Source: a virus
Virus record (IMG/VR): IMGVR_UViG_3300010373_001271
Span: 1 to 35,828 of that record
DNA length: 35,828 nucleotides
Reading direction: 5' to 3' (one strand)
In this document: piece after piece, positions 3,317 through 26,204 of the stretch
Position numbering within the stretch: position 1 is the stretch's first letter
How the letters are laid out: each line of letters begins with the position of its first letter
Position numbers and translations under genes: made by a program
The notes under the pieces: generated by a model
Told to the model about the DNA's origin: nothing
Databases searched by the model: none
Seen by the model: only the letters and a program-made list of their open reading frames with translations

Positions 3317-4957
3317 ATGGCCGGACTCATCCAGCACATTTTAGACGGCGTAACTTCGTGGCACCTGTCGCGCAAGGTTAAGGCCGGGACCGTGCTGGAA
3401 CTGCCGGAGGCACGGTATGAATCGGCGTTTCCCTTTTATCGCAAGCGGTCGTACGTGCCTGGCACCATCCAGGATGCCCGGCTCGACGCTTCTCCAGGCG
3501 TACGACGTGAGCTGCTGAAGAATTCGCGATACTGGGAACGCAACTCGGCGTACGCGAACAAGCTCATCGACCTCTTTGAAGCGTTTACCGTTGGCTCGAA
3601 TGGCCTGCATATCGTTCCCAGTTCCAGCGATGAGGATTGGAACGAGGCCGCGTCAGACTGGTGGAGAGATTGGTGCGAGCAGCCCGCCAGGGACAATTTT
3701 CAATCTTTCGGGATGCTCCAGGGCCTCATGGCGCGTGAGTGGTTTGTGGACGGCGAAATTTTTCTCAATCTGACCAGCGATCCTTCCACGGGTCGTCCTG
3801 CCTTCCAGCTCATCGAATCTCATCGCGTTGAAACTCCCGGTGACAAGGGACAGTACGAAGGCAACGGCATCACAGATGGTGTCGAGACGGACCAGGCCGG
3901 TCTGCCTACTGCCTATTACGTTCGCCAGCGAGACACTTCCTCGTTCTACGGCCAATCCAGTTTGATGGCCGGTGCTACGCAGATGTTGAACTACTCGACC
4001 CCTGGCACGTACGCACGAGTCAACGCCAGCAACATCATTCACATTTTTGAGCCGGTTCGAGCCGGTCTCAATCGTGGTCTCCCCATGTTGTATGCCGTCG
4101 AGCGCGATCTGCACGATCTGGATGACCTCCAGGACCTTGAAATGCAGAAAGCGAAGGAAAACGCGCGTACTGCAAAGGTCGTCAAAAGCAAAGCCGGTGA
4201 AGCTCCAAGCTCCGCCAATCTGTACCGGCAGAAGTATTCCACGCAAACCCAGGACGCGGCAGGCAACTCAGTTACGAAAAACATGCCGCAGTTCTATGAG
4301 ATTACGCAGGGCGGTGACGTGATTTACATGCAGCCGGGCGAGGACATGAGCGAGTTTCGCTCTGACCAGCCCAGTGCGGCCACGCAGGACTACTGGAACA
4401 CGTTGATTGGAAAAGTCTGTATCGGCGTCGGCATTCCCCGCGTGTTGGTCGTTCCTTATTCGATCCAAGGCACGGTTCTTCGCGCTGACATTGAAGTGGC
4501 TGCCGCCTATTTCCGCACTCGTTCCGCCGTGGTCGCTCACTCCATGCACCAGCTTTACAAGTTCGCCATGGGTTGGGCCGTCGAGCACGACCGCACTCTC
4601 AAACGAGCCACGCCGAAGGACTGGGACAATGTTGTCGTGCGTCCACCGCGTTCCGTCAACGTGGACGTGGGCAGAAATTCTTCGGCGCTCATCAATGAAA
4701 TGAACGCGGGCATTCGCAGCCTGGCTCAGGTGTGCAGTGAGCTTGGTGTCGATTGGCGGGAAGTCCTTCGCCAGCGTGCCATCGAATGGGCTTACGCACA
4801 GAAGATCGCAGACAAAACGGGCGTTCCTATCGAGCGGATTATGGAACTGCCGAAACCTGCTACGCCTCCGTCTGCTCCGCCCGATGGTTCTGACCCTGAC
4901 GCTGTAGTTATTCCCAAAGTAAACGGCAATGGCCATCACCGCCTGCAACTCGCTTGA
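3317..4957 (+). CDS. Phage portal protein, lambda gpB-like family
   Basis: The dodecameric ring through which DNA enters and leaves the capsid. Its 546 residues are typical for the family. Supporting segments are the N-terminal NSAYANKLIDLFEAFTVGSN helix and loop, MAREWFVDGEIFLNL, IESHRVETPG, and the stem region IIHIFEPVRAGLNRGLPMLY followed by a helix-rich charged stretch. The C-terminus ends in a Pro-rich tail. It sits directly between the packaging genes and the protease-capsid fusion, four bases before the latter. No Shine-Dalgarno is present at the start (TTTTAACTATGG), so translation is probably coupled to the upstream gene. Confidence 0.92.
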   Translation: MAGLIQHILDGVTSWHLSRKVKAGTVLELPEARYESAFPFYRKRSYVPGTIQDARLDASPGVRRELLKNSRYWERNSAYANKLIDLFEAFTVGSNGLHIVPSSSDEDWNEAASDWWRDWCEQPARDNFQSFGMLQGLMAREWFVDGEIFLNLTSDPSTGRPAFQLIESHRVETPGDKGQYEGNGITDGVETDQAGLPTAYYVRQRDTSSFYGQSSLMAGATQMLNYSTPGTYARVNASNIIHIFEPVRAGLNRGLPMLYAVERDLHDLDDLQDLEMQKAKENARTAKVVKSKAGEAPSSANLYRQKYSTQTQDAAGNSVTKNMPQFYEITQGGDVIYMQPGEDMSEFRSDQPSAATQDYWNTLIGKVCIGVGIPRVLVVPYSIQGTVLRADIEVAAAYFRTRSAVVAHSMHQLYKFAMGWAVEHDRTLKRATPKDWDNVVVRPPRSVNVDVGRNSSALINEMNAGIRSLAQVCSELGVDWREVLRQRAIEWAYAQKIADKTGVPIERIMELPKPATPPSAPPDGSDPDAVVIPKVNGNGHHRLQLA

Positions 4958-4960: not shown

Positions 4961-7666
4961 ATGAAAAAGTCTTTCTTCCACATCGGCCAAAAAGCCAAAG
5001 CCATAGCGCCAAAATCCCCGAAAGCAAACTGGGCGGATGAGAGATTTGTTTACGCCTGCCAGAACCTCATCACGTGTTGCACCGGCGCGTTGCGTGAAGG
5101 TGCCGACGCCATTGGCAACGAAGTCTCCACCGCCTGCTCTCAGGCCATCGTGTGCGCCAACGTCGCGATCTCCTGTTTCACCTATTACGACGAGGCCAGC
5201 TTGGCTGAGCGTATCAGCGCGTGCAGTGAACTCGCTGCGTGTTGCGAACTCTTGGAAGGCGCACTGGCTGAAGCGGATTTCGATGGCGCGAAATTCTGTT
5301 TGGAAGCTGCGCAGTCGTGCCAGGAGTTGTGCGCGTTGACGGCAGGCATTGAACCGGAGGAAGACGACGGCGCTACCAGCGCCGATGAAACTGCCACCGT
5401 TGCTCCGGCCCAGGCCAAAGCATCCAAAGCCCCCGCGAAAAAGGTTTCTGCCAAACGTCGTAACCCTGACTGGTTGATTGTCGAAGCCGTGGCCGGTGAG
5501 GACGGCACCGAATCGTACGACATGACCATTGATGGCGTCATCGGCGAAAGCCTCGACGACGACAGCCAGGTCGCATCCACAGAATTCAAAAATGCACTCG
5601 CAAAAATCCCCGCAGGTTCCGCCATCAACCTCTACATCAAATCACCGGGAGGAAGCTGCCTCGACGGCTACGCCATCTACAGCGCCCTCCAGGAGCGAAA
5701 AGACGATGTCACGGTCCATGTTATCGCAGCCCTGTCGATTGCTTCCATCATCGCACTCGGAGGCGGTCAGGTCCTCACGTCGCTCGCTTCCCAGTGGATG
5801 ATTCATTCGCCGCTGTCGAGCACGTACGGCAACGAGGACGACCACGCCGACAGCATCAAAATGCTTAAAAGCTTCGGGTCCACCATGGCCGACGTTTATT
5901 CCGCTCATACCGGAATGAGCAAGGACGACTGCTTGGCCATGATGAAAGATGAAACGTGGCTCACCGGCAAAGAGGCGGTCGAGATGGGTTTTGCCGCTGC
6001 CCTGGACCAGGATGCCGACGAGGAGGAAGTGTCCGCTACCTGCGCAAAGATGGTTGCTGCCTGTGAGCAGAACCTCGAACCGCGCTACGCAGTCGCTGCG
6101 TACTACAAACCCACGAAATCAATTTCCGCTCGCGCTGATGCTGGCGGTAAAACCAACGCTGGCTCCGCCGCCAGCACAACCAAAACTGAGAAAGAAAGTA
6201 TTATGGAAAAGCAAACAACTCCCGTGGCGGCGGCTCCCACCGCCAGCCCAACCCTTGAGCAACGCTTCGCCGAGGAGCGCAAAATGCGGATCACCGCTGA
6301 AGTGAATCGCCGCGCTGAGGGCAAAGTCACCAACTCCAATCTGGACTGGTGGATTGGCCAGGCGCTGGCCACGACCACCGCTGAGTCGGAGCAAGCGATT
6401 TACAAGCAGCTCGACGACATGCCGAAAGCTGCGGCACCCGGTGGTGCAGCCCTTCGGCCTGACAAGCCGGAAGCTGAATCATCCAGTGCGCCCGTGTTTG
6501 AAGTCCCGGTTGCACACGGTGCCCTGCCTCGCGCCAGCAAACGCCTTCCGTGGATGGAAGACGTGCGCAACCTGAAAAGCCGCGCAGCTCGTATCGAAGC
6601 GACCAAAAAGGATTGGGGTCAGAAGCTCGAATACTGCCTCCAGTTGGACGCCCGCGAAAACAAGGGCCAGTTGCCCGTGGCGGCAAACACGTACAGCGCC
6701 ACGCTGATCACGGATTTCCTCGTGGATCAGGCCGTGACGATTCTCGTGGCTCGCTTCGCCGCGCTCAGTTCGTTCGCCATCGAATTCGGGCCTGACCGGA
6801 TTAAGGAATACGCGACTGCGCAATGCAAATTCGTCACGTCGGCGGGGACCACACAGCGGGGAACAAAGTCGTCTCCGATCACGAATTTCGAGCAGGGCGA
6901 CGGAACCGTGGTCCCAATCACGGTGCCAATGACGCACTATGTCAAATCGTTCAATGTCTCACAGGAGGATATGCTCAGCGGCCTGCGCATCGAGAATTTG
7001 ATGCAGCTCAACCTGCTCCAGTTCACGAAGGACGTGACGCTCGACGCGCTCCAGCCCCTGGCAGCGGGACCTTCCAGCCAGCAAATTCCGGGTCCGCTGA
7101 ATAGCTCCGGCAACGTCACGAGCTTCAGTGCCGGAACGATTCACATCAACGCCGGAACATTCGGGTGGAACGCTGGTCAAACGGACGGTCACGACCTGGC
7201 ATCGCTCTGGGCGTACCTCAAAAACAGCCCGGAGAAAAATCTTATCCTGGACGGCAATCTCTATGGCCGTCTGACCAACTCGCCTGGATTCTTCCAGCCC
7301 GCGCTGGAGGACGAGAGCGGCGGTGGCGGTGACTCTGTGAAAACATTCGGGTGGGATCGTATTGAGGAAAACACGGTCTGGCCTGGGGTCACGGACGGCG
7401 GCGGCAACGCAGTCGGCGGTCTGGCTTGCAATCGTCAGGCCATCATCGGCGTCACCGGACTGCCTATGGTTCCGCCCAACATTCCGGGCGGGACGCTCAC
7501 AGAAACTGTGGTCACGCTGCCAAATGGTCTGTCGGTCAGCATGTTCACCTGGTTCTCCCTCCAGGCCCGCAAATTCTGGAACTCGTTTGAACTCATGGGC
7601 GGCTTTGCTGGCGGCGACGCCAGCGCGGGTGCCGTGATCTTCAACGGCAAGGGTTCAGTTAGCTAA
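4961..7666 (+). CDS. Cys-rich helical domain + ClpP-type prohead protease + major capsid protein fusion
   Basis: A 901-residue fusion protein. Residues 30-128 hold 12 Cys in four clusters (33/39/40, 59/65/72, 88/94/95, 113/120/124), each in a predicted amphipathic helix. This resembles the Cys-lined four-helix bundle of copper-storage (Csp/DUF326-like) proteins. Residues about 165-370 are a ClpP-fold (S14) protease: YIKSPGGS oxyanion-region motif, likely nucleophile Ser in ALSIASIIALGGG, and likely catalytic His in MIHSPLS. Residues about 415-500 are a charged, scaffold-like linker. About 545-901 is the major capsid part (TYSATLITDFLVDQAVTILV...). In lambda-like phages gpC matures the prohead and a nested product is the scaffold. 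Here the protease presumably cuts itself from the capsid part. An internal ATG at 6203 could give the capsid part alone. Confidence 0.88.
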   Translation: MKKSFFHIGQKAKAIAPKSPKANWADERFVYACQNLITCCTGALREGADAIGNEVSTACSQAIVCANVAISCFTYYDEASLAERISACSELAACCELLEGALAEADFDGAKFCLEAAQSCQELCALTAGIEPEEDDGATSADETATVAPAQAKASKAPAKKVSAKRRNPDWLIVEAVAGEDGTESYDMTIDGVIGESLDDDSQVASTEFKNALAKIPAGSAINLYIKSPGGSCLDGYAIYSALQERKDDVTVHVIAALSIASIIALGGGQVLTSLASQWMIHSPLSSTYGNEDDHADSIKMLKSFGSTMADVYSAHTGMSKDDCLAMMKDETWLTGKEAVEMGFAAALDQDADEEEVSATCAKMVAACEQNLEPRYAVAAYYKPTKSISARADAGGKTNAGSAASTTKTEKESIMEKQTTPVAAAPTASPTLEQRFAEERKMRITAEVNRRAEGKVTNSNLDWWIGQALATTTAESEQAIYKQLDDMPKAAAPGGAALRPDKPEAESSSAPVFEVPVAHGALPRASKRLPWMEDVRNLKSRAARIEATKKDWGQKLEYCLQLDARENKGQLPVAANTYSATLITDFLVDQAVTILVARFAALSSFAIEFGPDRIKEYATAQCKFVTSAGTTQRGTKSSPITNFEQGDGTVVPITVPMTHYVKSFNVSQEDMLSGLRIENLMQLNLLQFTKDVTLDALQPLAAGPSSQQIPGPLNSSGNVTSFSAGTIHINAGTFGWNAGQTDGHDLASLWAYLKNSPEKNLILDGNLYGRLTNSPGFFQPALEDESGGGGDSVKTFGWDRIEENTVWPGVTDGGGNAVGGLACNRQAIIGVTGLPMVPPNIPGGTLTETVVTLPNGLSVSMFTWFSLQARKFWNSFELMGGFAGGDASAGAVIFNGKGSVS
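6203..7666 (+). CDS. Possible nested in-frame product: linker plus major capsid protein
   Basis: Inside the fusion gene an in-frame ATG at 6203 is preceded by GAGAAAGAAAGTATT, a purine-rich stretch that could act as a ribosome binding site. Most genes in this cluster lack one. Initiation here would yield 487 residues starting MEKQTTPVAAAP, carrying the charged linker and the capsid domain but no protease. This copies the logic of lambda C/Nu3, where an in-frame internal start makes the scaffold. It also would allow capsid subunits to be made in excess over protease. This is an inference from position and sequence only; the fusion may instead be processed purely by proteolysis. Confidence 0.35.
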   Translation: MEKQTTPVAAAPTASPTLEQRFAEERKMRITAEVNRRAEGKVTNSNLDWWIGQALATTTAESEQAIYKQLDDMPKAAAPGGAALRPDKPEAESSSAPVFEVPVAHGALPRASKRLPWMEDVRNLKSRAARIEATKKDWGQKLEYCLQLDARENKGQLPVAANTYSATLITDFLVDQAVTILVARFAALSSFAIEFGPDRIKEYATAQCKFVTSAGTTQRGTKSSPITNFEQGDGTVVPITVPMTHYVKSFNVSQEDMLSGLRIENLMQLNLLQFTKDVTLDALQPLAAGPSSQQIPGPLNSSGNVTSFSAGTIHINAGTFGWNAGQTDGHDLASLWAYLKNSPEKNLILDGNLYGRLTNSPGFFQPALEDESGGGGDSVKTFGWDRIEENTVWPGVTDGGGNAVGGLACNRQAIIGVTGLPMVPPNIPGGTLTETVVTLPNGLSVSMFTWFSLQARKFWNSFELMGGFAGGDASAGAVIFNGKGSVS

Positions 7667-7720: not shown

Positions 7721-8065
7721 ATGGCAACCTTCGCTCCAACTCTCGCGCAGCAGGACCTGATTCTGGCTTTCCAGGATCAGCTCAGCTTGTACGGCCACAC
7801 GTTGACCAGCACGGGCACGAATTCGTTCGATTGTCTGCTGACGCCAGCCAATCCGGCTGAGCCGGAGTTCATGGAGATTTTCAAAGATGCCCGCGAAGTG
7901 AGCATCGCCTCGGCCTTGCGGACTAGCATTACGAACGGAATCACCGCACAAACAACTCTCACGGACGAAATGGGCCAGCAGTGGGTCACGATCAATCGCG
8001 TGGATAATCCAAGCCAGATCACGGTCGAGTTCTGGATGACCAAAGTGGCGAGTGTGGACACGTGA
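7721..8065 (+). CDS. Hypothetical phage protein, probable head-tail connector
   Basis: A 114-residue protein just after the capsid hairpin. The N-terminal half contains QDLILAFQDQLSLYGHTLTS. The C-terminal half alternates strands (TTLTDEMGQQWVTINRVD, then QITVEFWMTKV), a compact alpha/beta pattern seen in head-completion or tail-attachment proteins. That role is inferred from its place as first gene after the capsid, as with lambda FII. No family is recognised. The start at 7721 lacks a Shine-Dalgarno. The shorter frame starting at 7675 runs through the hairpin and is rejected. Confidence 0.6.
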   Translation: MATFAPTLAQQDLILAFQDQLSLYGHTLTSTGTNSFDCLLTPANPAEPEFMEIFKDAREVSIASALRTSITNGITAQTTLTDEMGQQWVTINRVDNPSQITVEFWMTKVASVDT

Positions 8066-8066
8066 T

Positions 8067-8852
8067 ATGCAAGCCAGCCTCACCATCGACACCACGAAAT
8101 TCAACCTCGGCTGCGGTGTGTACGTCACCGAGCTGAAAAAGACTCCCCGTGAAGTGGTCATGGAACAGGCCGGTTTGCTCATGGTCGATTTAGGCCGCAA
8201 TTTGCCACCGAAAGACCCAGAAAAAACCAAAGCGACCATTGAAAAATCGGTCCTGGGCAAATTCGGCACCATCAGCACGTCCACCGACGCGAACACTTTC
8301 ACAGTTGGCTCCGGTGGCAAAGAGGGCCATGGCGATGTTCACTGGATCGGAGCCAATGCGACTTCGCTGTTTGGTGTCGCTAAAGAAAAAGACATGACGC
8401 AGGCCAGCGCGGAGGACCTGCGAAAACTGTATTACACAATCACCAAGAGTGGAAAACAGCGTGTCAGCCAGCACGGTCGTCAAAAAGTTTACATTTCTCA
8501 GCGCGTCACGACGAAGGAATCCACGCAAAAAAAGCTAATTAAAATCATTCAGGGCCGAGTTGGCCTCTTGCGAGCGTCGTTTTGCGTCGGTCTGGGTGAA
8601 GTCAATGCCAGGCAGAATCCGCCAGCCTTCGTGATGAAGCATGTGGCCTCTGGCAAGGCGAAAGGTTCATTCATCAATGGCCTCGGCCTGCCAGGCAAAG
8701 CTGAGTTCACGCTTATTTCAAACGCTGCTGGCTGCACGGATGAAAAATCTACTTATTTTCTACAATCCGCACTGAATCGTCGAGGGGAGGCCATGCTCAC
8801 CAGGATTAGCTACCTCCAGAGAGAAGCCAAAAAGAAGGCGAGGTTTCAATGA
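8067..8852 (+). CDS. Hypothetical phage neck/minor tail protein
   Basis: A 261-residue basic protein starting at ATG 8067, one base after the previous stop. An in-frame ATG at 8052 would overlap that gene and is not preferred. It contains many Lys and Gln, a KYSI-like polar middle (GRQKVYISQRVTTKESTQKK) and a basic C-terminus (LQREAKKKARFQ). By position it corresponds to the lambda Z or HK97 gp10-type tail completion protein. No sequence motif confirms this. Its stop overlaps the next start as ATGA. Confidence 0.6.
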   Translation: MQASLTIDTTKFNLGCGVYVTELKKTPREVVMEQAGLLMVDLGRNLPPKDPEKTKATIEKSVLGKFGTISTSTDANTFTVGSGGKEGHGDVHWIGANATSLFGVAKEKDMTQASAEDLRKLYYTITKSGKQRVSQHGRQKVYISQRVTTKESTQKKLIKIIQGRVGLLRASFCVGLGEVNARQNPPAFVMKHVASGKAKGSFINGLGLPGKAEFTLISNAAGCTDEKSTYFLQSALNRRGEAMLTRISYLQREAKKKARFQ

Positions 8853-9394
8853 TCCAGGCAGCTCTCGATTTTGAGAACATCATTGAAGGTGCGATTGCCA
8901 CGGTGCTGACAAACGCTGGCCTGAACGTCTTCACGACCGGGCAGATTCCCGATTTCCAAAAAGACCGGCCTCGCGTCCAGGTGGAATACATCCACGGCCC
9001 TGGTCATCTCCAGTGGGCCAATCCGAACGTGATACCCAGTGACTTGAAGGGCCAGAAGGTTGAAACCGCCTGGGCCAGCACGCTGCATACACTGATCGTC
9101 ACGGCTGCCACCACTGCGGGCAAACAGCAGCAGTCGGATATTCGCGGCACAGTTCGGCTCGTGTATCTCAACTTGGGTCCGCAGTTGAACGGCAACCTGC
9201 TGACGCTCCACAAATTTAACCTGGTGAAGGAATCCGGCAGTTCACGCGGCATTCATCCGAACGACTCTAATTCCGAAGTGCTTCACCTGGTTCACGAAAT
9301 CCAGGTCAGCCTGCATGAGTCCGTCTGGAGCCAATACGAGCGTATCACCAATGATGGTTCCGTCCGTGTTGGTTTCATCAGGATCACCAACTGA
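8849..9394 (+). CDS. Hypothetical phage protein, candidate tail terminator
   Basis: A 181-residue alpha/beta protein. It starts with a helix (ALDFENIIEGAIATVLTNAG), then a short strand with Pro-Arg-Val-Gln-Val, and a later strand-rich part ending VGFIRITN. An N-terminal helix followed by a strand carrying a conserved RPRVQV-like segment is what tail-terminator (gpU-like) proteins show, and the position before the tail genes agrees. The assignment is by layout, not by a recognised domain. It overlaps the previous gene by four bases. Confidence 0.6.
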   Translation: MIQAALDFENIIEGAIATVLTNAGLNVFTTGQIPDFQKDRPRVQVEYIHGPGHLQWANPNVIPSDLKGQKVETAWASTLHTLIVTAATTAGKQQQSDIRGTVRLVYLNLGPQLNGNLLTLHKFNLVKESGSSRGIHPNDSNSEVLHLVHEIQVSLHESVWSQYERITNDGSVRVGFIRITN

Positions 9395-9396
9395 CC

Positions 9397-9687
9397 ATGC
9401 CGATCTTGTTCAAAAACATTACCGACCTGAACCAGGGCACCGTGATCAGCGGCACGGATGTCATTGAGATGGTCCACAATCCCGGCGTCAACGGTGAGAA
9501 CGTTCAGGTGACGGTGAATACCCTGGCTGCGGCCATCGGCGGCGGGGGCGGCGGTCAAATTATTGAGTACTCCGGCACTTATCCCAGTTCTCCACCAGCG
9601 AACTCCAACAGCCCGGCAATCGCGTATTCGGCGGATGGTACTGGCTCCGTGTGGTTCTGGAACGTCACCGGGCAGACCTGGATTTGA
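9397..9687 (+). CDS. Small fibre-associated protein with Gly-rich hinge
   Basis: A 96-residue protein. Residues 1-48 resemble a small alpha/beta attachment unit (MPILFKNITDLNQGTVISGT), followed by GGGGGG (about 48-53) and a short Ser/Pro/Asn-rich tail. The tail ends SVWFWNVTGQTWI, a pattern common at the N-terminal or exposed part of phage fibres. It sits immediately before two fibre-like genes with a two-base gap, so it may be an adaptor or chaperone for them. No family is recognised. Confidence 0.55.
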   Translation: MPILFKNITDLNQGTVISGTDVIEMVHNPGVNGENVQVTVNTLAAAIGGGGGGQIIEYSGTYPSSPPANSNSPAIAYSADGTGSVWFWNVTGQTWI

Positions 9688-9689
9688 AA

Positions 9690-11978
9690 ATGAAAGCCAC
9701 CCTGATTTTTATTTGCGCCCTGTTAGCACTGTCAGTGCGGGCAGCCAGCCCACTTTTCAGCCAGTTTGATACGAACAGTTTTGCATCTGATCCGCTGGCC
9801 GGATATGTGCGGGCTAACACAAACGCCAGCAACCCAAATGCGCTGGCAACCAAGGGCGATTTGAACGGCAGTTCTAACGCGCTGAATTCAGCCATTCAGT
9901 CGGCAAGCAGCACCGCCAATCTCGCCGTCGTCACCAACGATTCCCGCAAACTCATTTTGGGCAACTCGGCGAATCAAATCAGCGGCACATTATCAGGCTC
10001 CGCGCTCGGCACCTTTATACAATCCAATTCCCTCGTGACCGGCACGGCAAACCCTTTCCGCATAGGGTTTAATTCTGGCATCGGCTTTTATGTTTCCGGG
10101 ACCACCGCAGGACAAGAGACTTCCGTGGGTCTTTTGTCGCCTTGGGAAAATGTGGTCGATTATGGAAACGGATTTCCAGCCTTCAGTGCCTACGACGGCG
10201 TTGCGGGTGATTATACGTTTCGATTTTACCGAATGATTTCGACCTTGCCGACGACAAATCCAGACCCAACGAAACATACCGTGGCGGGAGTGCGCTACGG
10301 AAATATCGGCGCACAGCAAACCATTTACGCGCCCTTTATCGGCGGCTCTGCGGGGTCGCTGATTGATTTGCCCTCACATGACGGCGCTGAATTTCATTCC
10401 GCCATGCCGAAGCCATGGCTCGGTGTTTACACTGATGACACTACTGGAACGGCAACCGATTCAAATCCTGGGCCAGAGATGACCAATTACCTTTACCTGA
10501 CAAACATGTCTTATTTTTTCGAGACCAGCGGAATCACGGCGGCGCTCAACACTTACGGGACTGCGCCTAATATCTGGGGCGATTGCGGGTGGGAGCAAAC
10601 TAATCGCACGTCAGACGGAGTGATCCAGGTAAACACAAATCTGTTTCCCTTCGGATTCCAAAACGAAATTTCGATTGTGCATTCGCACGGAACCACGTTG
10701 ACGCTTCACATTTATCAGACGGCCAATTTGCCCAATCAATTTCCCAATCTCGTGGCGACAGTCCCGGATATGGCCTGGCGCACAAGTTTGGGCGGACATT
10801 TTTGGAACAGCTACCCAAGCGGAACCGGAGCGCAGGCAGGTTATCAAACGAATTTCACGTATCCGGCCATCACGCCTGACACAGTGCAAGTTGACCTGCT
10901 TTGGTTCTACACGAACGGTGTTGACGGAATCATGGATGCAGACCTCGACTCTCAGGAGGCGGAATCGCAAGGCTACGAGCATTACCGGCTGGCTAGTGTA
11001 GGTGATGCGATTCTCTATCCGCTGACTAAAAATTCTGGCCGAACAGCATGGCGAAACTGGACTCCACCAGACAGCGGCGGGAACAATGGAGCCATCGCCA
11101 CGACTTCATTTACAAACTCGCCATCCCTGCATCATCAACTTTGGTTCGGATACTTTGTGAACCATAGCGGCTCGGAAACGCCTTACTACGCGAACTTCAT
11201 TTCGCCAGACCAGTCCCCTGGGAATGTATCTTCAGATTCCTTGTTCGGCATGGCGATGTCTTATGCGCAGCTTTACGAAAACATGGGCGCAACGAATTGG
11301 CCTATTGGAACCTTCGGTTTCGCCGGGACACACGATTTCGGTCTAGGGATTACGATGGGCCAATGGACTAACTGGTATTCGGTCGTTGGCGAGTTCAATT
11401 TCTGTTCGGCCTCGCTGTGGTATACGAATGCCTGGAACACCAATCAGACTCCGATTGTCACCAATGCCAATTTCCTAGCGACCTGGACGGACACGACAGG
11501 CGGATGGCCGAAGCCCGTGTTTTGCGATTCATTTGTGGATGTGGCTGGAAAGGATTATGAGGGCACGAATAGCTTATGGATTCGACAGTTGAAAGATGGC
11601 TACGCGGTTCTGGCCTCGAACCTCGGCACCGTGTCGAGTAATTATAATTCCTCACTCGTCATTAACGGTGGCGTCGCTACAAATCAGGTTTATTGCGCGA
11701 CGAACATTTTGACCCAGACGCCATTCGGTACCGGATTGCTGACCAACAATTTCATCGGAACCATCGGCGCAGCCTCGCGAGCATGGGTGAAGCTCACGCC
11801 GTATTCAATCAATGGAAACTTTGTCGGCAACGGCGCGGGTGTGACCAACACACCGTTTTCCAATTTGAATCTCTCGCTCGTGATTGGGAGCGGAAGTAAT
11901 AACGTCGTCGGCTACCTCAATTTCACGAACAACCGGATTCATTACACGATCCCTGTTTGCACCAACGCTGTGCCATGA
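9690..11978 (+). CDS. Secreted fibre-like protein with degenerate GH27/clan GH-D-like domain
   Basis: A 762-residue protein. Residues 1-20 are a Sec signal peptide (MKATLIFICALLALSVRAAS). Residues 20-235 are Ser/Asn/Thr-rich, like fibre shafts. From about 240 the order of motifs recalls alpha-galactosidases: PKPWLGVYTDD, then GDCGWEQTNRTSDGVIQVN, FPFGFQNEISIVHSHGTTL and GVDGIMDADLD near 410. The last is in the place of the family's KYD nucleophile strand. GTHDFGLGITMGQW follows near 547. A C-terminal beta part (about 618-707, IRQLKDGYAVLASNLG ... AWVKLTP) is also as in GH27. The end has GNGAGVTN, a fibre-type motif. The nucleophile Asp is not cleanly aligned, so activity is uncertain. ATG 9690 is chosen because it begins the signal peptide two bases after the preceding stop. 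A host-polysaccharide binding or degrading role is inferred. Confidence 0.65.
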   Translation: MKATLIFICALLALSVRAASPLFSQFDTNSFASDPLAGYVRANTNASNPNALATKGDLNGSSNALNSAIQSASSTANLAVVTNDSRKLILGNSANQISGTLSGSALGTFIQSNSLVTGTANPFRIGFNSGIGFYVSGTTAGQETSVGLLSPWENVVDYGNGFPAFSAYDGVAGDYTFRFYRMISTLPTTNPDPTKHTVAGVRYGNIGAQQTIYAPFIGGSAGSLIDLPSHDGAEFHSAMPKPWLGVYTDDTTGTATDSNPGPEMTNYLYLTNMSYFFETSGITAALNTYGTAPNIWGDCGWEQTNRTSDGVIQVNTNLFPFGFQNEISIVHSHGTTLTLHIYQTANLPNQFPNLVATVPDMAWRTSLGGHFWNSYPSGTGAQAGYQTNFTYPAITPDTVQVDLLWFYTNGVDGIMDADLDSQEAESQGYEHYRLASVGDAILYPLTKNSGRTAWRNWTPPDSGGNNGAIATTSFTNSPSLHHQLWFGYFVNHSGSETPYYANFISPDQSPGNVSSDSLFGMAMSYAQLYENMGATNWPIGTFGFAGTHDFGLGITMGQWTNWYSVVGEFNFCSASLWYTNAWNTNQTPIVTNANFLATWTDTTGGWPKPVFCDSFVDVAGKDYEGTNSLWIRQLKDGYAVLASNLGTVSSNYNSSLVINGGVATNQVYCATNILTQTPFGTGLLTNNFIGTIGAASRAWVKLTPYSINGNFVGNGAGVTNTPFSNLNLSLVIGSGSNNVVGYLNFTNNRIHYTIPVCTNAVP

Positions 11979-12739
11979 ACCGACGCGCTTTCATTCGGCG
12001 GGCCGGTTGGGTTTCTACTGGCTTGATTTTCGTCCCGAAATTGCTTCGGGCCGACAACGTGACGAACTTTGTCGCGGGTCAGGGTATCGGCCTTGGGGAA
12101 ACCATTTCGACCACGCCAAGCGGAAGCGGTGGCGGTGGATGGTCTCTCATCGGCAGTGGAATCGTCGCTGCCAGCACGGATCAAGTATCGGTCACGACGG
12201 CACCATATAACACAGTCGGGGCTTCCTTGATTGTTATTGTTGAAACGGCAAATACGGCCAAGGCGCCAACGGATTCCAAGGGCAACACGTATACGTTGCG
12301 GGCCGATGGAACTCAGTCGTTTGGCAATGCACATTCCTACATTTACGCCTGCACTTCTCCCATCACCGACGCCGCGCAAACCTTTAGTGTCGCGGGCGCG
12401 AACTCACCCGCTCTCTGCGTCATGGCCTTCAGTGGCGGGATTGGAACATTTGACCAAGCCAATCACGGCTTCAACGATCTGACGACGACCGTTCAGCCGG
12501 GTTCGGTTACGCCGACTGCCAGCGGCGAACTGATTATTACTGGGATTGGTTACGGGGCCGGAACCTCAGCATCCGTCGATTCCGGCTTCAACACGCCGCT
12601 AAACAGCGCTCCGGGCTCCCACAGCACTGGCGGCGCAATGGCCTATCTCGTGCAGGCCGTCGCTGCCGCAATCAATCCCACTTGGACGGTTGGAGCAGCG
12701 GATAAATGCACGGCAGTCATCGCGACTTTTGAGAAATGA
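11975..12739 (+). CDS. Tat-signal beta-sandwich protein in the tail cluster
   Basis: A 254-residue protein overlapping the preceding stop (ATGA). Residues 1-32 form a twin-arginine signal: NRRAFIRRAG, hydrophobic WVSTGLIFVPKLL, then RAD. After a Gly-rich linker (SGSGGGGW, about 50-57) comes a beta-rich domain with GASLIVIVETANTAK, DSKGNTYTLRADG and ALCVMAFSGG. This is the pattern of secreted beta-sandwich domains with a Asp-x-Gly-Asn-Thr-Tyr motif, common in bacterial surface proteins. A Tat signal on a gene in a phage tail operon is odd. The protein may be displayed on the host surface or be a captured host gene. Function is unknown. Confidence 0.65.
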   Translation: MNRRAFIRRAGWVSTGLIFVPKLLRADNVTNFVAGQGIGLGETISTTPSGSGGGGWSLIGSGIVAASTDQVSVTTAPYNTVGASLIVIVETANTAKAPTDSKGNTYTLRADGTQSFGNAHSYIYACTSPITDAAQTFSVAGANSPALCVMAFSGGIGTFDQANHGFNDLTTTVQPGSVTPTASGELIITGIGYGAGTSASVDSGFNTPLNSAPGSHSTGGAMAYLVQAVAAAINPTWTVGAADKCTAVIATFEK

Positions 12740-12823
12740 AATCCCTGCTGCCAGATTTCCATCAAATGAAGCGTTTTCCATAAAGAAATCCTTGATTTTT
12801 AACCCACAACCAAAGGAAATAAA

Positions 12824-13219
12824 ATGAGCATTCAATACCCAACAACTCCGAACGTCACGCCGACCGGAGGCAGTTACAACGACAGTTCCAGCGTTTACGG
12901 CTCCGCCCAACTGACATTCACCAGCGGCGGCACGCAGACGTACGACACTAATGACTTCACACCGGACTACGACAGCGGTCGCAAAGAGCTGACGAATCGT
13001 TTCGGCGTGCCGAACCAGGCATTTGGCTTGCCAGCGACGCCCAACGGCAGTTGCACGCTCCAGATGTCATCCAACAGCGCCCAGATTCCCAGGCCGGGCT
13101 GGACGTTTACGGCTGACGTGACCGGGGCGATCACCTGGATCGTGAGCAAGGTGGCCACGCCCTATAAAAAGGATGACTTCCTGCTGCTGCCGGTCAGTTA
13201 TTACCAGAAGCTCAATTAA
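12824..13219 (+). CDS. Small tail protein, candidate tail tube
   Basis: A 131-residue beta-rich protein with a clear ribosome binding site (AAAGGAAATAAAATG), one of very few in the phage cluster, which suggests strong expression. It has many Ser, Thr, Tyr and Asn and a compact strand pattern (SAQLTFTSGGTQTYDTNDF, later TWIVSKVATPYKKDDF). Position two genes before the tape measure gene, followed by a likely chaperone, is where the major tail tube gene is normally found. It is shorter than most tail tube proteins, so the call is tentative. Confidence 0.55.
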   Translation: MSIQYPTTPNVTPTGGSYNDSSSVYGSAQLTFTSGGTQTYDTNDFTPDYDSGRKELTNRFGVPNQAFGLPATPNGSCTLQMSSNSAQIPRPGWTFTADVTGAITWIVSKVATPYKKDDFLLLPVSYYQKLN

Positions 13220-13230: not shown

Positions 13231-13809
13231 GTGCGCTCTGATGTCACATATCAGGAGGCGCTCTTTCAGCAGAACCTTGTTTGGAATGTTTCCTGGGCCG
13301 GAGTCAGCGAGGACATCTGCGGAATAGAGGCGCTGCCGTTTACGCCACTGCATTTCGTGCGGTTGGCAGCAGCGCGTTCGCCTTTTGTCTGCGGCGGTCG
13401 TGAGCCGACTGAGACGGATGTCGGCAATTTCCTTTGGTCCGTCAGTCCGCTCTACGATCCGTGCAGCCGTTGGAAAAAATTCCGTCACTGGCTCCGCTAC
13501 TTTCAAGCCTGCCGTAAAGTCACTCGCGATCAGTTCATTGCGAGCATTGACGAATACCTGGAGGAGGCGTGGCAGGATTCACCGCCGCGTCCGGCCAACG
13601 GCGGAAAATCCAAGGCGTACTACTCGCCTGTCGTCAGCCTCATGCGAGCACTCTGCCCGGAATACAGCATGACGCCTGAGACCGTGCTGCGTACGCCCTA
13701 TAAGCAACTGTTCCAGTTGTACAAACCAGTTGGCGCTGCCGTGGGTGTTCCCTTGACCGCTCCGGCTGACAGCGCGTTTCTTCGCGAGCGTTCCCGAACT
13801 CGAAACTGA
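13231..13809 (+). CDS. Hypothetical protein, candidate tail assembly chaperone
   Basis: A 192-residue protein starting at GTG 13231; no ATG lies in frame near the start. It has aromatic-rich helices (FLWSVSPLYDPCSRWKKFRHW), a central LEEAWQDSPPRP, and a basic C-terminus. It lies between the small tail protein and the tape measure gene, the slot of tail assembly chaperones (lambda G/T). No second overlapping frame suggesting programmed frameshifting was found. Identification is by position only. Confidence 0.55.
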   Translation: MRSDVTYQEALFQQNLVWNVSWAGVSEDICGIEALPFTPLHFVRLAAARSPFVCGGREPTETDVGNFLWSVSPLYDPCSRWKKFRHWLRYFQACRKVTRDQFIASIDEYLEEAWQDSPPRPANGGKSKAYYSPVVSLMRALCPEYSMTPETVLRTPYKQLFQLYKPVGAAVGVPLTAPADSAFLRERSRTRN

Positions 13810-13810: not shown

Positions 13811-15331
13811 ATGACCAAGCTGGAACAGATCATGGTAAAAATGGGCTTTGATGTCAGCGAAGCCAGCAAGGTGGGCGACGCCATGAACAAGGTCAAGGAG
13901 GGCACCAAAAAAGGCGGCGAGGGCATTGACGGCTTCAACACGAAAGGGCGTGAGATGAACGAGCTGATCAATAAAATCGGCGCGTCTTCTCCCGTTTTGG
14001 GTTCCGCCCTCAAAGCCTGCTTCAGCCCGGAGGCGGCTGGCATTGCCCTTTTCCTTGGCGCTCTGGAGTTCGTTAAAAGCCAGATCGAAAAGGTGGAGGA
14101 AAAAGTCAAAGAGTTGACCCAGGAAATGCGGGAGATGTGGCTGTCGGAGCAGGATTCAGCGATGAAAGCCCAGGAAGTGTACGAGGCTTATCAGCAAAAA
14201 ATCTCCGAAATCCTGGATTCCAAAAATCAAAAACTGGAGAACGAAGCCAAGGCTTACGAGCGGCAGTTGGCCGCGCTCAAAAATATCACCGGCGAGCACG
14301 AAAAGGTCCTCGCCAAAATTTACGAGGTCCAGGATGCCGATCAGAAGCGCCAGCGTGCCAAAGAGGACAAGACGCTGGATGCCCGGCAGGAAAAGGAATT
14401 GGCCGGGGCCGGAACAGAGGCTGCCAAGGATGCCATCAGGAAACGTTACGAACTGGAAAAAGAAGCCATCAACAACCGGCGTGAGTATGAGGACGCCGTT
14501 ACCAAGCGGCAGCGGGAAAAGCAGGCCGACGCGGATGCGGCCACGGCTGAAAAGGCCACGCAGACAGCCATGGCAAACCGTTTAAAGGCGCTGGAGGCGG
14601 CACAACAAAAATCTCTTGATGATGGAAAGAGCCTCGCCCAGGCGCAGAAAAAACAGCTTGCCGACAAGTACGCGCTGGAGGCTGAGCAGGGTAAAAATCT
14701 CGATAATCTTAAAAAGGAAATGGCCAAAGCGGATGCCGAGGTCAATCGCCGAGGCGGCGGCAGCGTCCTGCACAACCTCGCCCGAACTGCTTCCTATGCC
14801 ATGGGTGAAACCGGCGCTGCGCTGCGGGAGCAGGATGACGCCGGACTGGCGGACGCTCAAAAGAAGCAGGCCGACTTGCAGGCGCAGTACACCAAAATGC
14901 TTAAAGATCGGGCTGAGCTTCAGAAGAAAATCGAGGAGTCCACCAAAAAGATTTCTGAAAATGAAGCTGATGTGCAGGCGCGTAACACCGCGATCAATGA
15001 ACTGAAACAGCAACAGAAAGACCTTAACCAGCAGATCGCGCAGAACCAGTTACAGCGACGAGCTATTGGCGGTATCGCTGACGCCGAATTGAACCGCCTA
15101 AAAGGCGATCTGGGCATGGCACAAGCCATGAGCAGCGGCAATCTCGCTGCATGGTGGACGGGCAATTCAGGAGACTTCAGCCTCACCGGGCAGGTTGGCC
15201 GGGACTATGCAGCGCGGCACGGCGGCTTCGGCCTGCCGAGCCAGATAAAGACCAATGCCAAGGAGGATCAGGACAAACAGCAGACGGATTTTTTGAAGGA
15301 CATCCGCGACATTCTGGCTGGAGACAAATAA
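13811..15331 (+). CDS. Tape measure-like tail protein (coiled coil)
   Basis: A 506-residue protein dominated by long coiled coil (about residues 90-235, 245-300, 345-415). It is full of Lys, Glu, Gln and Ala, with one hydrophobic stretch at about 57-92 (SSPVLGSALKACF...GIALFLGALEFV). This matches tape measure proteins, whose length sets tail length. The MTKLEQIMVKMGFDVSEASKVG start is typical of the N-terminal part of such proteins. It is short for the class. It starts one base after the previous stop and the next gene starts one base after its own stop. Confidence 0.75.
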   Translation: MTKLEQIMVKMGFDVSEASKVGDAMNKVKEGTKKGGEGIDGFNTKGREMNELINKIGASSPVLGSALKACFSPEAAGIALFLGALEFVKSQIEKVEEKVKELTQEMREMWLSEQDSAMKAQEVYEAYQQKISEILDSKNQKLENEAKAYERQLAALKNITGEHEKVLAKIYEVQDADQKRQRAKEDKTLDARQEKELAGAGTEAAKDAIRKRYELEKEAINNRREYEDAVTKRQREKQADADAATAEKATQTAMANRLKALEAAQQKSLDDGKSLAQAQKKQLADKYALEAEQGKNLDNLKKEMAKADAEVNRRGGGSVLHNLARTASYAMGETGAALREQDDAGLADAQKKQADLQAQYTKMLKDRAELQKKIEESTKKISENEADVQARNTAINELKQQQKDLNQQIAQNQLQRRAIGGIADAELNRLKGDLGMAQAMSSGNLAAWWTGNSGDFSLTGQVGRDYAARHGGFGLPSQIKTNAKEDQDKQQTDFLKDIRDILAGDK

Positions 15332-17341: not shown

Positions 17342-17414
17342 GCGGGCTGGAATTTGTTTACGAAGACGTTCCGGCCCGCTTCCTTACAGAACGGAATAGG
17401 AGAAGTTTATGAGT
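16879..17414. repeat. 7-bp direct repeat TATGAGT flanking the HNH gene
   Basis: TATGAGT occurs at 16879-16885, right after the stop of the upstream gene, and again at 17408-17414, where it contains the start codon of the 1083-residue gene. The HNH gene lies between the copies. The left copy sits in a taGCTATGAGT context like the other late gene starts, as if the downstream gene once began there. This is suggestive of insertion at a start codon, but seven bases can match by chance. Confidence 0.3.
17398..17403 (+). promoter_or_regulatory. Ribosome binding site of the 1083-residue gene
   Basis: AGGAGA lies five bases before ATG 17409. Most other late genes here start without such a site and depend on coupling to an upstream stop. 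A proper site here fits with the HNH gene having separated this gene from its upstream neighbour. Confidence 0.6.
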
Positions 17415-20400
17415 GAGGGGGACGATAGACCATTTCGAGAACCCTGTGACGGCCAGTCGCTGTGTGGCGCTGGCCCGCTGTGGCAGCACGGGACGAACAC
17501 TGCGCAGAACATACCGCAGTACATCAATACGACCGGTGTGCCCGACTGGGCGAGCAGCGGCACGATCAATCCGTACGAGCGTTGGACACCTGATCCCGGT
17601 GGAGGAGAAAGCTGCGACACGCATTTTTGCGTGGACGGTGGCGCTCCGTGCGTGGCTTGGCCGAAGCCCTATCCGACGAACACATTCGCTTCCAGCGGCA
17701 CGAATATCGACCTCAGCCTGTGCCACAAAACCGGATTCAAGAATGTTCAGGCCCGCCGTACGTGGCACGGCTGCTTTGGGTGGGTGTCGAGCTGCGTCAA
17801 CTGCAACACCAACTTGTGCTCAGATGGTTCTGGCTATCGCTCGTGGCAGGGCACGGCTGATCAGACCAAATATCTGGTATGCACAATCGCCTCCACACTT
17901 TCCTCGGGATGGGATGACACGGACGGAAGCACCTTTTACAATTTCTTTTCCAGTACAGCCACCACGCGCACGGTCAACGCGCAGACCGGCGAAATCACCG
18001 AAACAAAATCCAACAGCGAATCAGATTCCAACACGCCCGATAGCGGCGGTTCCACTACCACCACTTCTGACATGACTGACGGTGTCGGTACAGTGGATGG
18101 AACGACTTACGCCAACAACGCCGGTAGCCTCACCGACGCGATTTTAAGCGTTGATTTTCATTGCGACACACCGCCATTGCCGAGCGCGGGCGGATTTTTC
18201 GGAGGCAACGATAGCTTGATTGCCGCCATCAGTGATTGGAATGCTGAACTATTGCTCGGAAGCGGAGCCTTTCCGGCACCGACCGATCCGAACAACTATA
18301 ACCAGATTGTAAACGTCGGAGATGGTGCTGGAGGCGTGATTGGCAGTTACAAAATTTCATGGTCGCGCAGTGCGACGGTGTTTTCGTGGGATGTGGAATT
18401 CACCCGTGATGTCGGCGCAGGCCAGAATTATTCCTTCAGCGGTTCAGCCACGCTCTCAAGTGCCAATACCAGCGCCGACATCTACTCCGATGTCGTCACT
18501 CTGCTCAATGAATGGCCGCTCAACGATGACACGCTGTACCCGTGGCGCACTGATCTTAAAGTCAGTGTGGCTCCGCTCGTTACGCGGAACGAATTTGTCA
18601 CCATTGCCACGCCCATCGGATTCAATTCATTCACGCAGGATGATTTTCGCTCACCCATCAATGACGCCAGTGGTAACGCGCCCTTCAGCGCGGGTTGGAC
18701 GCCCACCTTCAGTCAAATGAACTGGAAAGACCCTAACATTTGGGTCTTCACCTTTGCCGATGGCACCCAGGCGGCAGTTGGAGGATCATTCGGAGCCAGC
18801 GCCGCTGCCACTGGGTTGATGGCGCTGTTTGATGGCTCCATCGTCGGCGCTCCATTGCCAGCCGGGTATAAGAATTTTTTCGATTTTGGGTTTCTCGACG
18901 TGCGCGGCTGCTGCGACCGTCCGCCTGACAATCCCGGTGTGCAGACGTGGAGCTGGTACCAAGTGGGATGGGGCCAGACTCCCGAAACGTTTAACAGCAA
19001 CTCCGGCTGCGGATTGCCGCTCAATGCCACGCAGTGGAATAACTGGTTTGAGGCTGTAAACAAACCGCAGGGTGCTTATCTCTTTTATGCAGACCAGGGC
19101 CAGGGTTATTTCGGTCAGGGTTGCGTATCGTCTGGCAGCGGCAGCGGTGCCGGTGATGCTGGCCAGCTCGTCGGCTGCAAGTACGCTGAAATCCTGGAGA
19201 TGTGGCCATCCCAGAACTTCGCGCTGCCAGCAGGCGATATGAAATTCTGGTTTGATGAAAACCACGTATTCTGCGCCACGAACATTTCCGGCTCCGGCGC
19301 GGGTTCCACGTGGAGCCTAACTGATCCGATAACCGGCACGCCTCCGCCTGATTCAACGGACTTCAGCGGCGACTGGGGCGGCTCTGTTGTCAGTGGCTTC
19401 TACAATGTCACCAGCTACTCAGGCGGCACTTTGACACTTGGTTCAAAAATTTGGGACGTGCCAAGCAACTGGAGTTCAAAGAGCAACAGTGACGAGGCGC
19501 TGTGCTTCGGCAAACTCCGCTTTCCCTCATATCCGTCCCTCCTGGGCCGGGTGAAGATCACGCCGGACGTGGCGGGCACAGCGTTTACATTTGAAACTCC
19601 GCAACCAGCGTTCGGCATGGATGACTCGACGCACCAGGAAAAAGTTGATTTATGGGACGAGACAATGACATCGCTGGCGAGCAACGTCACGGCCACGCGG
19701 GTTGACGATTCCACGTTTACAACTGGCAGCGCCTATCTCACCGCCAAGTATGTCACAATTCACGGCGGACCTGCCTGGTACGTCAACGACACCCGCCCGA
19801 AAGGCGACTATGCGTTTTTGCAGTGGGTGGCGGATTTCCGAGCGCCAGGAGAATATCTCCGCTTGAATGGTGCGCTCGATTGCTCCGGCACTCAGATTCC
19901 AATTCCAGCCACGGTTTCGTACACAAACGCTGACTGTAACGACAGTCCGATCACGGTGACCACACCGGGCAACGGGTACGCTCAATTCTGCCAGACCGAA
20001 GGATGCCGGGGCTTTGCCCGCTGCAATCCACGAGTCATCTGCATTTCGCCGAACTGCGAATCATTCCCGAACGGCATCACTTATCCTTTTCCCAATGTGT
20101 CCACGGATTGCCAAGGTAACGACATCGCACACCCCATCACGTTCTCCCTCGATGAACAGTACGGCTCCAAGTGGTGGGGCTACGTTCAGTCCACGATGAC
20201 AGACCTGTACTGGCAGCAGCCACACCGGCCCTGCAACATCGAACCGTGCGCAAAGTGGCAGATGGACGGCGGTAGTTGTGCGGACGATCAGGCGCTCGAC
20301 TGTCCGGTGTTCTGTTGTCCAGGTGACGACGATTACGATCCTGATTCGAGCCAGCCACCAACTTACTACTACGGCCACGCTCCGCAGGCGGAGCCACGTT

Positions 20401-20660
20401 TGAGCGTGCCCAACAATTACGGCATGAGTCAGGACGAGTCTGGGCCGACTCTGCCGACTGGCATCCAAGTGGGCTGGCTGTCGCCCGTGAACAACACGAC
20501 CGGGGACATCGCTTTCCCTCCGGTTCCACCTGGGGCGCTTGGTGACAATGGAGCACCGGCAGGTGCAGCCGTGACATGGGATTTACACGCCTTGTTCTGT
20601 GGGTCTGGCCCTGGTTGCCGTTTCAGCGGATACACCGTTCCAGGCTGTGACCCTGCATGA
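17409..20660 (+). CDS. Large Cys-rich phage tail-tip or receptor-binding candidate
   Basis: A 1083-residue protein, the largest in the phage cluster, with no recognised family. Cys are concentrated at the two ends: residues about 13-160 (e.g. WVSSCVNCNTNLCSDG) and about 830-1083 (e.g. AQFCQTEGCRGFARCNP, LDCPVFCCPGDDDYDPD). The middle is rich in Ser, Thr, Asn and Gly and strand-forming. The C-terminal region has a Tyr-rich TYYYGHAP and Pro-rich stretches. No signal peptide is visible at the start (MSEGDDRPFREP). By size, late position and composition it could be a tail tip, host-specificity or fibre protein. The Cys may form disulfides or bind metal. Confidence 0.65.
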   Translation: MSEGDDRPFREPCDGQSLCGAGPLWQHGTNTAQNIPQYINTTGVPDWASSGTINPYERWTPDPGGGESCDTHFCVDGGAPCVAWPKPYPTNTFASSGTNIDLSLCHKTGFKNVQARRTWHGCFGWVSSCVNCNTNLCSDGSGYRSWQGTADQTKYLVCTIASTLSSGWDDTDGSTFYNFFSSTATTRTVNAQTGEITETKSNSESDSNTPDSGGSTTTTSDMTDGVGTVDGTTYANNAGSLTDAILSVDFHCDTPPLPSAGGFFGGNDSLIAAISDWNAELLLGSGAFPAPTDPNNYNQIVNVGDGAGGVIGSYKISWSRSATVFSWDVEFTRDVGAGQNYSFSGSATLSSANTSADIYSDVVTLLNEWPLNDDTLYPWRTDLKVSVAPLVTRNEFVTIATPIGFNSFTQDDFRSPINDASGNAPFSAGWTPTFSQMNWKDPNIWVFTFADGTQAAVGGSFGASAAATGLMALFDGSIVGAPLPAGYKNFFDFGFLDVRGCCDRPPDNPGVQTWSWYQVGWGQTPETFNSNSGCGLPLNATQWNNWFEAVNKPQGAYLFYADQGQGYFGQGCVSSGSGSGAGDAGQLVGCKYAEILEMWPSQNFALPAGDMKFWFDENHVFCATNISGSGAGSTWSLTDPITGTPPPDSTDFSGDWGGSVVSGFYNVTSYSGGTLTLGSKIWDVPSNWSSKSNSDEALCFGKLRFPSYPSLLGRVKITPDVAGTAFTFETPQPAFGMDDSTHQEKVDLWDETMTSLASNVTATRVDDSTFTTGSAYLTAKYVTIHGGPAWYVNDTRPKGDYAFLQWVADFRAPGEYLRLNGALDCSGTQIPIPATVSYTNADCNDSPITVTTPGNGYAQFCQTEGCRGFARCNPRVICISPNCESFPNGITYPFPNVSTDCQGNDIAHPITFSLDEQYGSKWWGYVQSTMTDLYWQQPHRPCNIEPCAKWQMDGGSCADDQALDCPVFCCPGDDDYDPDSSQPPTYYYGHAPQAEPRLSVPNNYGMSQDESGPTLPTGIQVGWLSPVNNTTGDIAFPPVPPGALGDNGAPAGAAVTWDLHALFCGSGPGCRFSGYTVPGCDPA

Positions 20661-21941: not shown

Positions 21942-22166
21942 ATGGGAGCATTGATCAAAAACTGTGAGACTCAGGCATTTCTTAAAAGCCTTAACGAGTG
22001 GACGCCAAAAAGAGCGGAGGCAAAGGAATTCAATTCATCGCTTCAGGCGGTGATGTTCTGCCAAAAAAACAAATTGGAAAAGGTGGAAGTGATATTGGTA
22101 ACTGACGGTGCTGAATACGATGTGCCACTTCACCAAAGTCCTGAATGCAAAGACAAGACAGGTTAG
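21942..22166 (+). CDS. Small hypothetical protein, host-type
   Basis: A 74-residue protein from ATG 21942; a TTG at 21924 could add six residues. It reads as one small alpha/beta domain: NCETQAFLKSLNEWTPKRAE, then SSLQAVMFCQKNKLEKVEVI and a final strand with YDVPLHQSPEC. The layout of a helix ending in FC followed by a V-x-V-x-L strand and a YD...P end resembles short proteins I associate with Verrucomicrobia. That is recollection, not a search. It is the first gene to the right of the phage block. Function unknown. Confidence 0.5.
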   Translation: MGALIKNCETQAFLKSLNEWTPKRAEAKEFNSSLQAVMFCQKNKLEKVEVILVTDGAEYDVPLHQSPECKDKTG

Positions 22167-22271
22167 CTTTTCATTCGGCGGGAAGATTCGTGAATTTTTT
22201 CCTTGCTCTTGTCCCAATTACCTCCCAAACCGGGACGCAAGCGATTGCGTCCCTTTTTGTTGCCGCCGCGC

Positions 22272-22335
22272 GGAGCGCCGAGCACCAGCTCGGCAAGATG
22301 GCAGTTCCACGCGCCGATCTGGAGATCGGCGCTCC
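22272..22335. repeat. Composite palindromic (REP-like) element upstream of polA
   Basis: Outer arms GGAGCGCCGA (22272-22281) and TCGGCGCTCC (22326-22335) are exact inverted repeats. Within them lie two hairpins: GCCGAGC-ACCA-GCTCGGC (22277-22294) and GCGCCGATC-TGGA-GATCGGCGC (22311-22332). The second hairpin with its flank recurs in inverted orientation inside polA at 23335-23360 with one base different. Two facing hairpins of this kind are typical of REP/BIME elements mobilised by TnpA-REP transposases, of which a remnant lies at 31717-32216. It could also affect polA transcription. Confidence 0.7.
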
Positions 22336-22402
22336 ATCTCCGCTCCCTCCTGTTCAATTCTGCAGACTCGCGGAACTCACCTCTCCGGGGTACTCTGTGC
22401 CC

Positions 22403-25222: not shown

Positions 25223-25245
25223 CCTGCGAAGTGCTCCGTCGCAAT

Positions 25246-25491: not shown

Positions 25492-25662
25492 CTTTTTTAA
25501 TTTTGACCGGAGTAGGCTCAAACCACAGCCGCAACGCTTCCTTCGCGTTCGCGATTGCTTCCTCCTCCGTATCACCGGCTGACGCGCAGCCAGGCAGTTC
25601 AGGGAAACAGCCGACCAGCGATTGGTTTCGGGATCGTGCTCAACGACTAGCCGAAGTTTCAT
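25460..25662 (-). pseudogene. hicB: HicB antitoxin, frameshifted by one base
   Basis: HicB would neutralise HicA and repress the operon. Starting at ATG 25662 the first 18 residues are MKLRLVVEHDPETNRWSA. The rest of the family pattern continues in another frame as CFPELPGCASAGDTEEEAIA ... EALRLWFEPTPVKIKKG and ends AVP-stop at 25460. The 203-base length is one short of the 204 needed for 67 residues plus stop, so one base is missing near 25609-25610 (between the GGC and TGT codons). Either the antitoxin is dead or the sequence has an error. The toxin gene follows on the same strand. Confidence 0.8.
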
Positions 25663-25717
25663 AATACGGAAATAGTTTTAATTTCTGGCCAAAGCAAGTT
25701 TGTCGAATTGAATTCAA

Positions 25718-26197: not shown

Positions 26198-26204
26198 TTT
26201 CTCT

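Follow-up and report, generated by a model that had tools for sequence, protein, structure and literature searches.

Results

The locus of P0001 and its provirus

The stretch of DNA analysed here (the window) is the whole of record IMGVR_UViG_3300010373_001271, which is 35,828 bases long and carries phage structural genes over approximately 0.15–21 kb. An earlier sequence-only reading had proposed that the ORF at 9690–11978 encodes a secreted GH27-like protein embedded in the tail cluster. The ORF is confirmed and encodes a protein of 762 amino acids, referred to below as P0001. The placement also holds, because P0001 lies in the structural operon, between the head gene block (terminase, portal, and an ORF combining ClpP-type protease and major capsid protein) on one side and the tail genes on the other; it is encoded among the virion genes, as a tail spike or fibre would be. 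The features of the window are as follows, and other loci are denoted by L and a number.

457–2394: terminase
3317–4957: portal
4961–7666: ORF of 901 amino acids, ClpP-type head maturation protease (PHROG match) and capsid (by position and length)
8849–13219, plus strand: variable stretch of 4.4 kb with five ORFs, between genes 8052–8852 and 13231–13809
9397–9687, plus strand: small protein of 96 amino acids without a signal, directly upstream of P0001 (2-base gap to the ATG)
9690–11978, plus strand: P0001, Sec-signal, GH27/GH-D-like protein (ATG at 9690, stop at 11978)
9690–9743, plus strand: Sec-type signal peptide, residues 1–18 (MKATLIFICALLALSVRA), from the sequence and a rule-based test
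10578–10718, plus strand: residues 297–343 (DCGW...DG...FPFG...HSHG), the only clear GH27 profile match (Pfam, GH27 profile and hhalign)
10917–10949, plus strand: residues 410–420 (GVDGIMDADLD), proposed nucleophile strand (alignment A4, no profile support)
11451–11768, plus strand: residues 588–693, weak colinear match to the C-terminal part of GH27 (score 22.0, 0 of 60 shuffles)
11814–11969, plus strand: C-terminal module with GNGAGVTN, common to the L142 protein at 8191–9726 and host secreted proteins
11975–12739, plus strand: protein of 254 amino acids with a twin-arginine (Tat)-type signal (MNRRAFIRRAGW...), its start overlapping the P0001 stop (ATGA)
13811–15331: tape-measure-like ORF
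17409–20660: protein of 1083 amino acids with a homologue in prophage L108

In L313 a single ORF of 2077 amino acids also has matches to both protease and head protein. From approximately 22 kb onwards the genes are of host type, namely PolA (22145–25222) and, by eye, EF-G-like and RHS-like ORFs. The full-length identity of PolA is up to 77% to metagenome-assembled genomes of Verrucomicrobia subdivision 3 (Limisphaerales; L080) and, in view of this and the other host-type genes of the flank, we judge the record to be a provirus or a chimeric contig with flanks of Limisphaerales type. A tRNA search of the window found none. Host-type chromosome makes up 22145–35828, more than one-third of the record, and includes a pilin-like N-terminus at 35348. 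The source record draws its viral boundary too wide.

P0001 belongs to a variable cassette, since the syntenic prophage L108 has approximately 0.9 kb and two ORFs at the place where the window has 4.4 kb and five, between homologues of the flanking genes 8052–8852 (32% identity, E value 6e-28) and 13231–13809 (1e-9). No promoter- or terminator-like excess was found within the cassette. The GC3 of P0001 is slightly low, at 0.59 compared with 0.60–0.75 in other phage genes.

The N-terminus of P0001, MKATLIFICALLALSVRA/ASPLF, has the charged n-region, hydrophobic core and AxA site of a Sec-exported protein, and the Sec signal proposed by the earlier reading is therefore canonical, as judged by the home-made rule that was applied to all signal peptides in this work.

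Similarity of P0001 to GH27 enzymes

The sole Pfam match to P0001 at E ≤ 1 was Melibiase_2 (PF16499), which aligned residues 298–343 with profile positions 55–97 at an E value of 0.022; the score was 14.5 bits against a curated cut-off of 23, and by that threshold P0001 falls outside GH27. When the window alone was compared with Melibiase_2, a second colinear piece (10830–11018, profile positions 97–162) appeared at a non-significant 2.1 bits (E value 1.7). With a GH27 profile built on an alignment of 55 Limisphaerales ORF pieces, P0001 scored 16.4–16.5 bits and the runner-up in a set of 1122 proteins from related phage loci 2.4; run against 4835 ORF segments of other loci, the same profile retrieved six true GH27s, and the best unrelated segment reached 5.0 bits. 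The hhalign score of P0001 against the GH27 profile was 35.4, with 20 shuffles at or below 21.4 and the reversed sequence at 13.7, and is to be read beside a single-sequence chance match by one of the 17 other window proteins (gene 8849–9394), which scored 31.0 (P 0.001).

Scores for separate segments locate the similarity. Residues 285–350 (34.9) and 480–720 (22.0) had scores that none of 60 shuffles reached, whereas those of residues 345–480 (12.2) and 225–300 (12.3) were reached by 49 and 28 of 60, respectively. The proposal that the middle and C-terminal parts follow the segment order of clan GH-D is therefore supported at two places only. At residues 297–343 we found the conserved β2–β3 segment DDxW...FPxGxxxxxxxxHxxG, and in the weak C-terminal match TNSLWIRQLKDGYAVL stands opposite the GH27 'evWxkxLxdGxxaV' strand pair, in the correct order. 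The profile comparison that had been suggested for residues 230–710 thus recovers a remote similarity but misses the Pfam cut-off. From these alignments we consider the resemblance to GH27 and clan GH-D to be real but remote, and P0001, which fails the curated threshold, is best called GH27-like. A GH27 subfamily with 'GAQ.YY', which by eye seemed closer kin, was discarded, its hhalign score of 20.7 falling within those of 30 shuffles (maximum 21.3).

The sequence-only reading had further taken GVDGIMDADLD as the nucleophile strand, which is not borne out, as the surrounding residues 345–480 have no profile similarity. In alignment A4, GVDGIMDAD lies opposite W-G-(L/I)-D-x-V-K-V-D, with M-D-A facing K-V-D, so that Met415 occupies the position of the GH27 Lys and Ala417 that of the nucleophile Asp, with an Asp on both sides of Ala417. 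The catalytic strand of P0001 may therefore be inactive (lectin-like), shifted or misaligned. Another stretch, 'VQVDLL' (alignment A3), was considered as nucleophile but ranked below GVDGIMDAD because of A4 and the FxxxG(V/I)D pattern; both are candidates only. The region of the acid/base Asp has no reliable alignment to GH27, and AF2 gave pLDDT values of 30 for P0001 as a single sequence and 31 for residues 228–721 with four GH27 rows (A4), too low to show the TIM barrel plus C-terminal β-sandwich of clan GH-D.

Relatives of P0001 and of its C-terminal module

No whole-protein homologue of P0001 was found in phages, viral contigs, genome contigs, plasmids or 320 genomes of the order; among 387 genomes of the phylum, two gave short matches that held stops and were taken as chance. 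P0001 had no match in PHROGs, and so falls into no known tail family there. GH27 genes were present in 56 of 146 genomes of the host order, which makes this GH27-rich order a plausible source. On viral contigs GH27 was rare by the patterns used: one search gave two stretches, neither a relative of P0001, and another gave 14 loci, three of them GH27 (L232, L238 and L241). Full-length GH27 genes lie on the viral contigs L238 (7940–9061, minus strand), where terminase-like and HNH-type ORFs were seen nearby by eye, and L232 (7168–8298, minus strand). The L238 gene gave seven matches among 50,697 phage records, all of them unannotated records from faecal metagenomes. One GH27 is also listed among coral viral auxiliary metabolic genes in the available text of PMC11656804. 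P0001 is like these genes in being a GH27 sequence on a viral contig, but those of L232, L238 and L241 are full-length, recognisable GH27 enzymes, whereas P0001 is a remote mosaic.

Residues 709–760 match a Sec-signal, fibre-like protein of the related phage L142 (8191–9726; 38% identity over 58 amino acids, E value 0.014), and the similarity runs through a GNGAGxTN motif. This motif occurs in 22 of 116 Limisphaerales genomes (reversed control pattern, 0), mostly in signal-bearing proteins where the ORF start falls inside the fetched piece. We therefore rejected it as a marker of phage fibres: the module is common in Limisphaerales secreted proteins and is not phage-specific, so that of the fibre-like ends proposed earlier the C-terminus does match a fibre-like protein, but through a motif shared with the host. 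One Limisphaerales genome (G120, contig C12, 190088–194971) has 14 GNG.G.TN motifs in approximately 5 kb, in a repeat-rich protein of secreted type.

Sec-type N-termini among the spike-type proteins of related phages

Through the portal we gathered 91 loci (the window, 84 viral contigs and six prophage loci), which were divided, after a first look at the signals, into a near group of 48 and 43 others. Among non-core ORFs with a length of 300 amino acids or more, the near group had a strict Sec-type N-terminus in 14 of 76, compared with none of 132 core ORFs (terminase, portal and major capsid protein; Fisher 3e-7), a count in which L129 repeats L128 and from which three Sec-signal ORFs (in L142, in L108 and at L129:9744) are missing because an upstream start was used. 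The other 43 loci, which may end short of the fibre genes, gave one of 54 non-core ORFs, tape-measure-like by eye, and none of 114 core ORFs.

Three of nine Sec-signal proteins compared with PHROGs were matched and six were not. The pectate-lyase proteins of L139 and L007 matched tail spikes (1.5e-27 and 8.6e-7, respectively), and the β-helix spike of L143 gave a match at 4.3e-10. Pfam identified GDSL (esterases) in L106 and L005 and pectate lyase in L007 and L139, and further Sec-signal proteins are of YadA-head or other fibre-like types. The tail spike of Bacillus phage Adastra, a homologue of the L139 spike, has no signal. Several of the Sec-signal proteins have in common the domain right after the signal, which in L143 also occurs alone and without a signal, just upstream of the signal-bearing spike. 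Among nine loci with a distant portal, only L269 and L112 were judged to reach the fibre region: L269, a Limisphaerales prophage, encodes a Sec-signal fibre-like protein of 309 amino acids, and L112 a fibre-like ORF of 984 amino acids without a signal. L128 (8620–12521) and L129 (5592–11432) each have a row of four to five phage genes in which every one carries a Sec-type signal, these rows comprising a fibre-like protein of 869 amino acids, three small proteins and a β-helix protein.

Small Sec-signal proteins encoded next to the capsid gene

Small ORFs related to one another, each with a Sec-type N-terminus, were recognised in six loci, namely L106 (13586–14014, minus strand), L108 (6262–7077), L132, L136, L142 and L144 (7058–7522), and L116 was added by homology. 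Where the map shows their position, these seeds lie just after the capsid ORF or one gene further on. The seven ORFs form alignment A5, which by its look is too degenerate for peptide patterns; it leans towards signal-bearing members, most of the seeds having been detected by way of their signals and the signal being part of five of the seven rows. A search with the A5 profile, read with that bias in mind, gave matches in 11 of 313 genomes, two of them seeds. Ten new places were fetched and nine recovered as ORFs (L318 was not), namely L313 (8696–9154), L314 (8885–9349), L315, L316, L317 and L319–L322. The strict signal rule was passed by seven of these nine, L319 and L320 being signal-like by eye; the N-terminus in L321 (8162–8674), MKKTLKYGFSLLQVMLVIAILGILAALALPAQA, resembles a mix of prepilin and Sec signals.

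With L316 left out as a near copy of L315, PHROGs identified the gene directly upstream as a major head protein in seven of eight cases (L313, L314, L315, L317, L319, L320 and L321), and in L322 it had no PHROG match. The upstream head proteins of these new prophage loci fall into three families. Two members of the small family had no match in PHROGs. This adjacency to head protein genes indicates that the signals belong with virion genes, not with stray cargo.

Discussion

Virions of tailed phages are assembled in the cytoplasm, and as a rule the parts of a virus do not leave the cell before lysis. Export signals on spike proteins are unusual for this reason, and a spike bearing a cleavable signal for export would be barred from the usual route of joining the virion. 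The signal peptide, only a detail in the earlier reading, is therefore the more unusual feature of P0001, and it argues for export from the cytoplasm rather than for an ordinary tail fibre. The suggestion of a phage fibre with a glycosidase-fold domain survives in part: the remote GH27 middle, the Sec signal, the position in the structural operon and the Sec-signal homologues of tail spikes in related phages agree with it, but the catalytic strand is not recognisable.

We give an even chance to P0001 being an exported protein of spike or depolymerase type, encoded by a Limisphaerales provirus, with a middle derived from GH27 (clan GH-D). On the comparisons made here, the best reading would be that it is one case of a recurrent habit, in which phages of this host group export spike-type proteins. 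The habit appears undescribed, in that phages of Verrucomicrobia with Sec-signal spikes were absent from the portions of the literature returned by our search.

That P0001 is instead an ordinary virion fibre or spike, whose hydrophobic N-terminus serves as a tail anchor or is a leftover, seems to us unlikely. Its position in the structural operon would suit such a protein, as would the matches of Sec-signal relatives to tail-spike and fibre PHROGs and the N-terminal domain that several of them share after the signal; however, these N-termini are textbook signal peptides with a charged n-region and AxA sites, the core structural genes have no such signal (0 of 132), the neighbour of P0001 bears a Tat-type signal instead, and the homologous Adastra spike lacks such an N-terminus. 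The structural-operon setting with its tight gene overlaps, the same kind of signal on homologues of known tail spikes in other phages of the group and the small Sec-signal family tied to capsid genes likewise make it quite improbable that we are dealing with a cargo (lysogenic-conversion) gene pair taken from the secreted repertoire of the host, P0001 being then a bacterial modular surface protein with no role in the phage cycle, even though signal-bearing secreted proteins of Limisphaerales often contain the GNGAGxTN module, the host order has many GH27 genes, syntenic L108 lacks the stretch and P0001 has a slightly lower GC3 than the other phage genes.

Alternatively, the GH27 similarity might have arisen by chance over a short stretch, and the middle might have a different fold, for the clear similarity extends over approximately 45 residues only, the active-site region is without a match and AF2 gave no fold. 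We think this improbable, because the difference between 16.4 and 5.0 bits separates P0001 from all unrelated proteins, the only Pfam hit is to the GH27 family too, and the second, weak colinear match beats 60 of 60 shuffles. Compared with GH27/Melibiase_2 itself, P0001 has DxGW...DG...FPxG...HSxG in register and the weak C-terminal match, but differs in its score below the cut-off, in lacking a recognisable K-x-D nucleophile strand and in its long unrelated N- and C-terminal parts. Tail-spike depolymerases of the pectate-lyase fold (PHROG 2234 and others), homologues of which occur in the same phage group, share the structural-operon position, but P0001 has no PHROG match, a GH27-like rather than a β-helix middle, and a Sec signal. 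WceF of Pantoea stewartii, as described in the available text of PMC7949094, can be likened to P0001 as a tailspike-like enzyme acting on biofilm exopolysaccharide; it differs in being a bacterial gene with a tailspike-like fold, outside phage operons.

If P0001 is indeed an exported protein of spike type, it would be made from the structural operon during late expression and would cross the inner membrane by way of Sec, and its neighbour (11975–12739) would leave by Tat. The GH27-derived middle could then recognise or cleave a galactose-type sugar of the host surface or exopolysaccharide, either in the periplasm or, after passage of the outer membrane or lysis, outside the cell. Most likely it would remove surface polysaccharide before or during release, or else prevent re-adsorption. 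It is possible, although we are doubtful, that tailed phages of Limisphaerales export several products of the structural operon, diverse spike enzymes and the small post-capsid protein, through Sec or Tat before lysis, as exit or receptor-destroying enzymes or as parts that join the virion only outside, the make-up of the virion being split over two compartments. If the signals are used, then depolymerases would be deployed ahead of lysis, or virions would be finished outside the cell, and either route, if true, would change the view of spike genes in Verrucomicrobia phages and of soluble depolymerases in general.
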